A stretch of 64,000 bases of DNA from Gammaproteobacteria bacterium (GTDB lineage Bacteria; Pseudomonadota; Gammaproteobacteria; GCA-001735895). A model generated the notes under the pieces. The model worked only from the letters and a program-made list of their open reading frames with translations. It was not told the origin of the DNA and searched no databases. Both the position numbers and the translations under genes were made by a program. How positions within the stretch are numbered: position 1 is the stretch's first letter; each line of letters begins with the position of its first letter. This document shows positions 4,979-31,741 of this stretch, in pieces. Location: NCBI GenBank assembly GCA_022340305.1, contig JAJDOF010000071.1, positions 1-64,000 on the forward strand. The letters are read 5' to 3'.

Positions 4979-5048
4979 GACAATCTCCATTGGGCTGAAA
5001 TATATGAACCAGTAACAACGGAGAGATGGGGAATGGTGGAATTCGCTC

Positions 5049-5134
5049 ACATCCCTACGCCAGTATTAACTGGATCAGGTTCATCGGGTTGAGGTCGAAG
5101 CGACTTCTCTCAGCTCTAGGGAGCACCCCGTTGA
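5049..5134 (-). promoter_or_regulatory. TPP riboswitch (THI element)
   Basis: On the minus strand the leader carries all the conserved blocks of the thiamine pyrophosphate aptamer in order: GGGGTGCTCC, GCTGAGA, ACCCGATGAACCTGATC, then CAGTTAATACTGGCGTAGGGA. The pyrimidine- and pyrophosphate-binding arms are therefore intact. It lies about 70 bases upstream of the thiB start and 10 bases downstream of a promoter. A CATCTCTCC run between aptamer and gene is nearly complementary to the thiB GGAGAT site, which would fit control of translation initiation; that mechanism is inference. No intrinsic terminator is obvious between aptamer and thiB. Confidence 0.96.
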
Positions 5135-5143
5135 GGAGCGGTG

Positions 5144-27909: not shown

Positions 27910-30630
27910 ATGAATCAAGAGAAACAAAAAAAGCTGGTGTTGGTAGACGGCAGCTCGTACCTGTTTCGCGCCTATCATGCGCGTGGCGTAAACCTGTCGA
28001 GTCCGGACGGTCGACCGACGCATGTCATTTATATCGTGTTGAACATGCTCAACAAGCTGGTCAACGATGAGCAGCCCGATCTCATCGGCGTGGTGTTCGA
28101 TGCCAAGGGAAAGACTTTTCGCAATGATATCTATCCCGAGTACAAGGCCAACCGGCCGCCCATGCCGGATGATTTGCGCGAACAAATCGAGCCACTGCAT
28201 GAAATCATCAAAGCGCGTGGGCTGCCTTTGATCTGTGTCGAAGGAGTCGAGGCAGACGACATTATCGGCACCATGAGTCGTGAGGCCACCGAGCGGGGTT
28301 ATCGGGTGCTTATTTCAACGGGCGACAAGGATATGGCGCAACTGGTTAACGCCAATGTCAGCCTGATCAATACCATGAATAATCATTCGATGGATGAGAC
28401 GGGAGTTGTTGAAAAATTCCAGGTGCGCGCGGACCAGATCATCGATTACCTCGCGCTAATGGGGGATAGTTCGGACAATATTCCCGGCGTTCCCAAAGTG
28501 GGTCCAAAGACCGCTGCAAAGTGGATTGCCGAGTATGGCGATTTAAATGGCGTTATCGCCCATGCCGATGACATCCAGGGAAAGGTTGGTGAAAACCTGC
28601 GTGAATCGCTGGGCTTTCTTCCCATGTCATATCAACTGGCGACGATCAAACTGGATTGCGATACCGGCATTGCTATCGATGACCTGGAACCAGCGCAGTC
28701 CGACCGGGCGGCGCTCGCGGACTATTACCAGGAGTTTGGCTTCACCCGCTGGTACGATGAACTCCAGTCCGAGTCGAAGCCGGAGCCTGCAGCGGCAGGC
28801 AACAGCGCCGCAAAGGCGTCGCAAAGTAGTTACGAATGTATTCTCGAACAGGCCCGTTTCGACGACTGGTTGCAGCGCCTGCGCCAGGCGGACGAGTTTA
28901 CGATCGACACCGAGACCACCAGCATCGATTACATGCATGCCGAACTGGTGGGCATATCGCTGTGCCTGCAGGTTGGCGAAGCCTGTTATATTCCGCTTGC
29001 GCACAGCTACGAAGACGCACCCCGACAACTCGACAAGGCGCAGGTGTTGGCAGCGCTTAAACCAGTCCTCGAAGATCCGGCAATTGGTAAAATCGGCCAG
29101 AATATCAAGTATGACGCGCATATTTTTATCACCGAGGGCATTCGCATGCGCGGTATCGCGCACGACACCATGCTCGAATCCTACGTGCTCAATTCCACCG
29201 CGAGCCGGCACAACATGGATGCGCTGGCAAAATTTTATCTCGATCGCGACACCATCCATTTCGAGGATATCGCCGGCAAGGGGACGAAGCAGGTAACCTT
29301 CGACCTGATCGAGATCGAAGTCGCCAGTGACTATGCGGCCGAAGATGCCGATGTCACCTTGCAGTTGCACCAGGTGCTCGGCGCGCGCTTGCGCGACGAT
29401 GAAAAACTGAACTCGGTTTACCGCGACATCGAAATGCCACTGGTGGATATTTTGCTCGATGTGGAACGCAATGGCGTGCTCATAGATCGCGATCTGTTGC
29501 GCATACAGGGTAAGGAAATCGACCAGAAACTGGGCAAGATCGAGCTTGAAATTTACCAGCTGGCGGGCGAGGTTTTCAATCTCAGTTCGCCCAAGCAGAT
29601 CCAGACTATCCTGTTCGAAAAGCTTGAGTTACCGGTGCTACGCAAAACACCGAAGGGTCAGCCATCGACCGCCGAGGACGTACTCGAAGAACTGGGACGC
29701 GACTATGAGATTCCGGCACTGCTGCTGGAACACCGCGGCCTCAACAAGTTGATGTCGACCTACATCGATAAATTGCCACAGGAAATCGATCGCAATACCG
29801 GCAGGGTACACACTTCGTACCAACAGGCCGTCGCCTCCACCGGTCGCCTGTCGTCCACCAGTCCTAACTTGCAGAACATTCCGATTCGCACTGCCGAGGG
29901 CCGCCGTATTCGTGAAGCCTTTGTGGCGCCAGCTGGCTACAAGTTATTGGCACTGGATTATTCGCAGATCGAGTTGCGCATCATGGCGCATTTGTCAGCC
30001 GACGAAAGCCTGCTCAATGCCTTTGCCCGCGGGCTAGACGTTCACCGCGCTACTGCCGCCGAGGTATTTGGAGCCGAACTTGAGCATGTCAGTAGCGAAC
30101 AGCGCCGTGCCGCCAAGGCGATCAATTTCGGTCTGATTTACGGCATGTCCGCCTTTGGCCTGGGCAAGCAGTTGAATATTGGACGCAACGAGGCGCAGCA
30201 ATATGTTGATACCTATTTTGAGCGTTATCCGGGTGTCAAACGTTACATGGAGGAAACCAAGCAACTTGCGCGCGACCAGGGCTATGTCGAGACGGTATTC
30301 GGCCGCAGGCTGTATCTACCCGACATCAACGCCCGCAATGCCAATGTGCGCCAATATGCCGAACGCACCGCAATCAATGCCCCGATGCAGGGTAGTGCCG
30401 CCGATATCATCAAGCGCGCGATGATTCGGGTACAGAGCTGGCTGTGGGAACAGCAGCTGGATTGCAAGATGATCATGCAAGTTCACGATGAACTGGTTTT
30501 CGAGGTGGCGCAAAGCCAGGTCGACCAGTGCCGCGATGCCATAGCCGGCCTGATGACCTCTGCGGCGAGTCTCGATGTTGCGCTGGAAGTGGACGCCGGC
30601 ATCGGCCTAAACTGGAACGAAGCCCATTAG
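27910..30630 (+). CDS. polA: DNA polymerase I
   Basis: A 906-residue PolA with all three domains. The 5' nuclease spans about 1-290 (LVDGSSYLFRAYHA, GVEADDIIG, MGDSSDNIPG). The 3'-5' proofreading exonuclease spans about 310-500, with active-site FTIDTETTS. The polymerase domain extends from about 500 to the end, with LALDYSQIELRIMAHLS (motif A), RRAAKAINFGLIYGMSAFGL (motif B, shown to its core) and QVHDELVFEV (motif C). It fills repair gaps and removes RNA primers. The 250 bases after it hold a large hairpin and a predicted small RNA. Confidence 0.98.
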   Translation: MNQEKQKKLVLVDGSSYLFRAYHARGVNLSSPDGRPTHVIYIVLNMLNKLVNDEQPDLIGVVFDAKGKTFRNDIYPEYKANRPPMPDDLREQIEPLHEIIKARGLPLICVEGVEADDIIGTMSREATERGYRVLISTGDKDMAQLVNANVSLINTMNNHSMDETGVVEKFQVRADQIIDYLALMGDSSDNIPGVPKVGPKTAAKWIAEYGDLNGVIAHADDIQGKVGENLRESLGFLPMSYQLATIKLDCDTGIAIDDLEPAQSDRAALADYYQEFGFTRWYDELQSESKPEPAAAGNSAAKASQSSYECILEQARFDDWLQRLRQADEFTIDTETTSIDYMHAELVGISLCLQVGEACYIPLAHSYEDAPRQLDKAQVLAALKPVLEDPAIGKIGQNIKYDAHIFITEGIRMRGIAHDTMLESYVLNSTASRHNMDALAKFYLDRDTIHFEDIAGKGTKQVTFDLIEIEVASDYAAEDADVTLQLHQVLGARLRDDEKLNSVYRDIEMPLVDILLDVERNGVLIDRDLLRIQGKEIDQKLGKIELEIYQLAGEVFNLSSPKQIQTILFEKLELPVLRKTPKGQPSTAEDVLEELGRDYEIPALLLEHRGLNKLMSTYIDKLPQEIDRNTGRVHTSYQQAVASTGRLSSTSPNLQNIPIRTAEGRRIREAFVAPAGYKLLALDYSQIELRIMAHLSADESLLNAFARGLDVHRATAAEVFGAELEHVSSEQRRAAKAINFGLIYGMSAFGLGKQLNIGRNEAQQYVDTYFERYPGVKRYMEETKQLARDQGYVETVFGRRLYLPDINARNANVRQYAERTAINAPMQGSAADIIKRAMIRVQSWLWEQQLDCKMIMQVHDELVFEVAQSQVDQCRDAIAGLMTSAASLDVALEVDAGIGLNWNEAH

Positions 30631-30735: not shown

Positions 30736-30874
30736 TTACAAGGCGCCTGATCGCGGCGGACCCGGGCACCTGCCACGGTGTCACGGAGAGTCATTCTCTG
30801 AAATATTTTTTTACCCGAATTGATCCAGCCGCTGCCATCGCACGTATACCTGTGACTTGCTAAATTTGGGTAGA

Positions 30875-30904
30875 TTGAAATTTTAAAATCCACACCCATA
30901 TAGA
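30875..30904 (+). promoter_or_regulatory. Predicted promoter of the polA-engB small RNA
   Basis: TTGAAA (30875-30880), an 18-base AT-rich spacer and TATAGA (30899-30904). A start near 30911 would place the RNA 5' end just before its first stem. Confidence 0.5.
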
Positions 30905-30910
30905 TGAACA

Positions 30911-31095
30911 TTAACGTCCTTCGATGTGGCCGAATTCCCACCGGCAGGTGGAACTAAGCAGTGCATCGCAGGTCTACTGAATTAGCGCTTTAGCCCGGCG
31001 CTATGTCCGTTCTCCCTCCTATGAGCGGACTTTGATCCGAAAACCCCATTCGGATCACACGTTTTTCCCTGGCAGTTTTCTGCCAGGGTTTTTTT
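30911..31095 (+). ncRNA. Predicted structured small RNA at the polA-engB locus (Spot 42/ErsA position)
   Basis: About 185 bases with no credible ORF but with stems in tandem: CGATG/CATCG (30922-30926 with 30964-30968) enclosing CCACC/GGTGG (30938-30942, 30947-30951); TAGCGC/GCGCTA (30983-30988, 30998-31003); GTCCG/CGGAC (31005-31009, 31026-31030); a 9-bp stem TGATCCGAA (31033-31041, 31049-31057); and a strong intrinsic terminator. A promoter-like pair lies just upstream. The same place, between polA and engB, encodes Spot 42 in E. coli and ErsA in Pseudomonas aeruginosa. The sequence is not evidently like either, so homology is not claimed; function is inferred only from position and structure. 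Confidence 0.65.
31067..31095 (+). terminator. Strong intrinsic terminator
   Basis: CCCTGGCAG, a TTTT loop, CTGCCAGGG and then seven T. A 9-bp perfect stem plus T tract on the plus strand; on the minus strand it is followed by A, so it acts rightward only. It ends the predicted small RNA ahead of the convergent engB. Confidence 0.93.
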
Positions 31096-31150
31096 ATGCT
31101 CTCGAAAATTATCGATGCAAGCCAGTTTTGCGCGCTATTTCATGCATGCT

Positions 31151-31741
31151 TCAGGGCAACGTCAGCCACTCGCCACATCTTTGCTCCAGCAATTCGAGGC
31201 CCTGTCCCGTTTGAATGGATAAGGTCGATACCGACTGATCGGGCCCGATGAGCTGTGCCTGGGTTGCGGCGACTACCTTGTGAACAGCATTGCGCCCCAG
31301 TTTGTCGGATTTGGTCAGCAGTATATGTAGCGGCACCGTGTTATCCATCATTTCGATCAGGGCTCGATCGAGATCGCTGATACCGCGGCGTATATCAACC
31401 ACGATTACCAGACCACGCAGTGCCTTACGCTGCAGCAGGAAGGTCGAAAGCACCAGGTTCCAGTGATTGCGCAGTTGCTTGGAAACCTTGGCAAATCCGT
31501 AGCCGGGCAAATCGACCAGGTGGCATTGCGGGTCGACCTCGAAGAAATTGATCAATTGTGTGCGTCCCGGGGTTTTACTGGTTTTACACAGGTTTTTCTG
31601 CCGGGTAAGGCAATTGATCGCACTGGATTTGCCCGCATTGGAGCGGCCCGCAAATGCAACCTCGGCGCCGGCGTCGGGCAGCAATTGCGAGAGTTCGAAT
31701 GCACTGGTAACGAATTTTGCTTGTCTGAATGAAATACTCAT
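31151..31741 (-). CDS. engB: Ribosome biogenesis GTP-binding protein EngB (YihA/YsxC)
   Basis: A 196-residue EngB GTPase needed for 50S subunit assembly. Start at ATG 31739-31741 gives MSISFRQAKFVTSAFELSQL, matching the family; the longer frame to 31846 is not typical. G1 is AFAGRSNAGKSSAINCL, G3 HLVDLPGYGFAKVS and G4 LTKSDKL. It is convergent with the small RNA at its 3' end and divergent from cytochrome c4 with about 90 bases between. Confidence 0.96.
   Translation of the reverse strand: MSISFRQAKFVTSAFELSQLLPDAGAEVAFAGRSNAGKSSAINCLTRQKNLCKTSKTPGRTQLINFFEVDPQCHLVDLPGYGFAKVSKQLRNHWNLVLSTFLLQRKALRGLVIVVDIRRGISDLDRALIEMMDNTVPLHILLTKSDKLGRNAVHKVVAATQAQLIGPDQSVSTLSIQTGQGLELLEQRCGEWLTLP

Follow-up and report, generated by a model that had tools for sequence, protein, structure and literature searches.

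The stretch of DNA analysed here (the window: 64,000 nucleotides from an uncultured marine gammaproteobacterium) carries a structured element of about 115 nt adjoining polA. We regard it as quite probable that this element encodes a trans-acting, sigma-E-induced small RNA (sRNA) with C-rich loops, which belongs to a polA-locus family including sX13, anti-hemB and probably ErsA. The sRNA lies 3' of polA, convergent with engB, and the features of the locus are as follows:

27910–30630, + strand: polA, the upstream neighbour, on the same strand as the sRNA (ORF and synteny)
30950–30955, + strand: GGAACT, −35 element of a sigma-E/AlgU-type promoter, kept in 20 of 20 genus members
30972–30976, + strand: GTCTA, −10 element, with the same spacing as in the rpoE promoter of this genome
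30979–31097, + strand: conserved sRNA unit of covariance models R1 and R2 (alignment of 19 genus members; class-wide covariance model matches beside polA/engB)
30983–31003, + strand: stem-loop 1, loop UUAGCCC (fold of the unit and covariation)
31005–31030, + strand: stem-loop 2, genus-invariant loop UCCCUCCUAU, anti-Shine-Dalgarno-like (alignment and fold; the stem covaries only at class level)
31033–31057, + strand: stem-loop 3, loop AACCCCA (fold and covariation)
31067–31095, + strand: intrinsic terminator, 9-bp stem and seven T (terminator found; covariation)
31151–31740 (start codon approximate), − strand: engB/yihA, the convergent downstream neighbour (ORF and synteny)

The limits of the sRNA emerge from its closest relatives. 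A DNA search of related genomes gave matches in 21 of 39, every one within the genus, and most of these matches start at query position 115 or later, typically at 123, which corresponds to approximately 30972. An oriented alignment of 20 copies shows the same sharply conserved block, and in most genus relatives conservation is seen only from this point onwards. Since the 5' part is not kept, we place the sRNA at approximately 30982–31097 instead of 30875–31095, and a start near 30908, as proposed in a first-pass annotation of this DNA, has to be abandoned in favour of the model unit. Nearly all genus loci long enough to show it have polA upstream and engB downstream of the sRNA. Among the genus members without a BLAST match, one (G014) does carry the sRNA (64.8 bits), the contig of another (G009) stops just past engB and is not judgeable, and a third (G015) has no engB match. 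No credible ORF overlaps the region, as had been annotated. Upstream of the promoter, an inverted repeat of the type GGGG-TTGAA-N-CCCC occupies 30867–30897, spanning the TTGAAA of the first-pass annotation, and recurs at the corresponding position in about ten genus relatives; it might be a polA terminator or a regulator site.

The strand folds far better than its shuffled versions, in keeping with the structured small RNA annotated at this position, the one held by Spot 42 and ErsA. Nucleotides 30908–31096 reach −74.7 kcal/mol versus −48.5 ± 4.2 kcal/mol for shuffles (z −6.2), and z is still −4.2 when the terminator is left out. The terminator itself was found exactly as described beforehand, while the five stems counted in 185 bases did not all survive. 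The claimed 5' stem (approximately 30918–30970) overlaps the conserved sigma-E-type promoter, is not conserved and is no part of the sRNA; the consensus fold therefore comprises three hairpins plus the stem of the terminator, all within about 115 nt.

Compensatory changes among relatives, named as a test in the first-pass annotation, are present in the stems. In alignment A2, comprising 91 matches across families, 95.9% of cells are paired versus 28–47% in slid controls; this alignment was fitted to the covariance model, which favours pairing, but the gap to the controls is large. Double changes occur in 33 of 33 pairs of A2, a level that 0 of 500 shuffles reach. The genus-only MAFFT alignment has double changes in six pairs, again reached by 0 of 500 shuffles. 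Within the genus, neither stem 2 nor its loop varies, so support for this stem rests on the class level. Across the family, the hairpin loops consist of 54–56% C, and CCC occurs in 70–76% of loops versus 15% after shuffling. The loop UCUCCCUCCUAU looks like the end of 16S rRNA that carries the anti-Shine-Dalgarno sequence.

A different promoter from the one first annotated stands ahead of this block. The letters TTGAAA (30875–30880)-N18-TATAGA (30899–30904) are indeed there, but they are not conserved among genus relatives, and we rejected this sigma-70 candidate (30875–30904). What the genus alignment keeps is (G)GAACT(T/A)-N15-GTCTA, represented in the window by GGAACT-N16-GTCTA (30950–30976), and transcription is predicted from the promoter geometry to start at approximately 30980–30985. 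The pattern GAAC[T/C]-N15-17-GTC is found in all 20 genus members versus 0.05 expected from shuffles and none in the downstream control. Elsewhere it precedes 13 of the 23 training loci from other families, 40 of the 60 further loci and 18 of 19 loci in Pseudomonadaceae, mostly 26–34 nt ahead of the model start; over all of these controls, downstream counts were 0–1 and shuffles gave at most 0.21. RpoE is present in the genome (311 bits, cut-off 236); its gene is followed by an ORF resembling RseA and preceded by its own GAACTT-N15-GTCTTT. Taken together, the conserved motif, the presence of RpoE and the same motif ahead of rpoE strongly suggest that the sRNA is under sigma-E control. The strict pattern GGAACTN{17,18}TCTRA has three matches in the genome, fewer than the reversed control, and none of them lies at an obvious regulon gene.

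The sRNA is by no means confined to one genus. When trained on the genus alone, model R1 matches 43 of the 369 class genomes, and most of the loci fetched with it contain polA and/or engB. Exact-pattern matches come from Ectothiorhodospira, Thioalkalivibrio, Halothiobacillus and an Olavius algarvensis symbiont, as well as from many MAGs labelled only Gammaproteobacteria, Chromatiales or Thiotrichales. The broader model R2 matches 212 of 369 genomes, the weaker matches being unverified. We inspected 60 loci from the higher-scoring R2 matches; one (L153) has a contig of the same length as that of training locus L059 and probably duplicates it, several come from training families and the rest are new genomes. 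Either polA or engB lies within the stretch in 49 of the 60. Wherever polA is present, the sRNA is on its 3' side (39/39) and mostly on its strand (34/39), and where both genes are present it lies between them in 30 of 31 loci. An inverted arrangement is seen in L157, L158, L160 and L175, where the sRNA is still 3' of polA but encoded on the engB strand. Several genera have two to five copies in tandem at the polA or engB locus (L043, L047, L049, L059, L086, L131, L136 and L187). Beyond the 49 loci with polA or engB, a few more (L169, L170 and L184) have the sRNA beside the cytochrome c4 gene, which follows engB in the window. In five loci without polA (L163, L170, L178, L197 and L210), the upstream gene resembles an M48 (BepA-like) or HtrA/DegQ-type envelope protease, a likeness judged by eye from the translation. 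As for other structured RNAs, the sole window match to Rfam at its own cut-offs is a TPP riboswitch (5034–5140, − strand, 70.1 bits), and a c-di-GMP-I riboswitch is found near one homologous locus (L028, 2038–2122, − strand).

The anatomy of the sRNA, read in the light of sX13, suggests how it might work. Under envelope stress, RNA polymerase carrying RpoE (sigma-E) would transcribe the RNA of about 115 nt, which the intrinsic terminator would end. Three stable hairpins would then expose C-rich single-stranded loops, above all UCUCCCUCCUAU, and these could pair, either with or independently of Hfq, with Shine-Dalgarno or enhancer motifs that are rich in G and close to start codons. By analogy with sX13, for which this has been demonstrated experimentally, the expected outcome is translational repression. 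When the genome was searched for sequences almost perfectly complementary to loop 2, the sRNA gene itself was the sole match, versus five for the reversed control, so the search supports no target.

Known RNAs of the same locus helped us to place the family. The sX13 RNA has a length of 115 nt, is encoded 175 bp downstream of polA and comprises three stem-loops with C-rich apical loops and a terminator; it acts independently of Hfq to repress mRNAs that carry G-rich motifs close to their start codon (PMC3771888). Like it, the window sRNA is located directly 3' of polA on the same strand, with three C-rich-loop hairpins and a terminator; the two differ in the sequence of the first hairpin. The Rfam sX13 model (RF02232) has no match in the window at E ≤ 10 and none in the genome to which the window belongs, and it matches two homologue loci at 37–38 bits. 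Conversely, R2, which was not trained on sX13, recovers the three loci passing the Rfam sX13 cut-off, at 30–35 bits. The anti-hemB model (Burkholderia RNA 7, RF02837) gives the window a score of 32.7 bits (E 8e-6, 601 bases searched), below the gathering threshold of 49.5. Among relatives, it matches 21 stretches in 18 of 20 loci at 26–52 bits, two of them over the cut-off, and the polA/engB homologues that pass are L026 (51.5) and L028 (50.7). Stem-loop 2 (of the CCCGCU-CCUCCC-UGAGCGGG type), stem-loop 3 and the terminator are common to anti-hemB and the window sRNA, whereas the 81 positions of the anti-hemB model lack stem-loop 1. By these model comparisons, the window sRNA is homologous to sX13 and anti-hemB, their common ancestry being detectable through intermediates.

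One could suppose instead that a separate RNA arrived at this position by convergence and acts as an ordinary Hfq-dependent antisense regulator, as Spot 42 and ErsA do. The lack of an Rfam sX13 match in the window fits such a supposition, and so do the low R2 scores of Spot 42 (18.5 bits) and the ErsA-like loci (14–29 bits). Against it stands a graded chain of homologues with the same side of polA, the same promoter geometry and C-rich loops; moreover, true sX13 loci are recovered by a model that never saw them, and the intermediates that would have to join sX13, anti-hemB and the window sRNA at the same locus are largely seen. We therefore hold convergence to be unlikely.

It is very improbable that the CU-rich loops serve as a sponge or decoy for a protein or another sRNA and leave mRNAs alone: three repeated C-rich loops do resemble multiple similar binding sites, and the loop-2 search yielded no target, but mutations in sX13 loops and targets support action on mRNAs (PMC3771888). 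We give hardly any credence to the idea that no regulator exists and that the locus is a bidirectional or reinforced terminator. Convergent genes, an intrinsic terminator and a second terminator-like stem (31033–31057) speak in its favour; yet termination needs neither invariant loops nor a promoter of its own that is conserved, and it has no use for tandem copies or for copies located elsewhere than at polA. A sigma-E-induced regulatory RNA of the polA-locus family accommodates these observations best.

The authors of the sX13 study regarded their RNA as restricted to Xanthomonadaceae and raised the question of related RNAs at other polA loci (PMC3771888). The answer given by R2 is yes, with matches in 212 of 369 class genomes (the weaker ones unverified), mostly with a sigma-E-type promoter. 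On our best reading, sX13, anti-hemB and probably ErsA, described as separate RNAs, belong to one widespread polA-locus family, so that RNAs of plant and human pathogens studied apart are now united. In the open-access part of the literature, we found no work joining sX13 with anti-hemB (or, as is probable, with ErsA), and none mentioning both ErsA and sX13. Many unstudied bacteria are thereby predicted to use sigma-E control and targeting through loops, and a covariance model is now ready for use.

Finally, we would like to compare the sRNA with the remaining RNAs found beside polA. ErsA is reported to lie in the polA-engB interval (PMC8575079) and to be strictly dependent on sigma-22 (PMC7565897). 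Since the first Pseudomonas genome examined (G185) has engB away from polA, we sampled the family Pseudomonadaceae, recognising its genomes by a CrcZ match (307 bits). The polA-engB interval of these bacteria contains an RNA whose arrangement (SL1, U-rich domain, SL2, SL3) agrees with that published for ErsA; GAACTT-N-GTC precedes this RNA, and R2 matches it in 20 of 31 loci within the low score range given above. The locus, the sigma-22/AlgU-type promoter (in the window, the motif only) and the C-rich loops of SL2 and SL3 are alike in ErsA and the window sRNA. What sets ErsA apart is its domain II, a long (34-nt) single-stranded U-rich stretch that separates SL1 from SL2 and is its reported pairing region; the fold of the window unit has no such domain between these stem-loops. 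ErsA is reported to be Hfq-linked and to act via the U-rich region, whereas sX13 works without Hfq. We see ErsA as probably a diverged branch of the family. The first-pass suggestion of a distinct RNA, matching neither Spot 42 nor ErsA, holds for the sequence of Spot 42 but gives way before the homology to sX13 and anti-hemB and the place, promoter type and C-rich loops common with ErsA.

Spot 42 of enterobacteria and vibrios likewise lies 3' of polA and before engB, and is repressed by CRP-cAMP instead of being driven by sigma-E. We rejected its membership, as there is no Rfam match (RF00021) and its R2 score is weak; at best, it is a very remote relative. The true sX13 loci carry the GAACY-N15-17-GTC motif in 0 of 3 cases, unlike the window sRNA, and control would therefore have changed at sX13. 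In Alphaproteobacteria, the alpha-r7 sRNAs are also reported to lie beside polA and to have three stem-loops with C-rich motifs (PMC3771888). It is tempting, though rather doubtful, to suppose that sX13, anti-hemB, ErsA and, most remotely, Spot 42 and alpha-r7 all descend from one ancestral sigma-E-controlled C-loop sRNA at polA-engB. In that case, most Gammaproteobacteria would have it as a core regulator of envelope stress, and its targeting would have shifted from C-rich loops to U-rich single strands.
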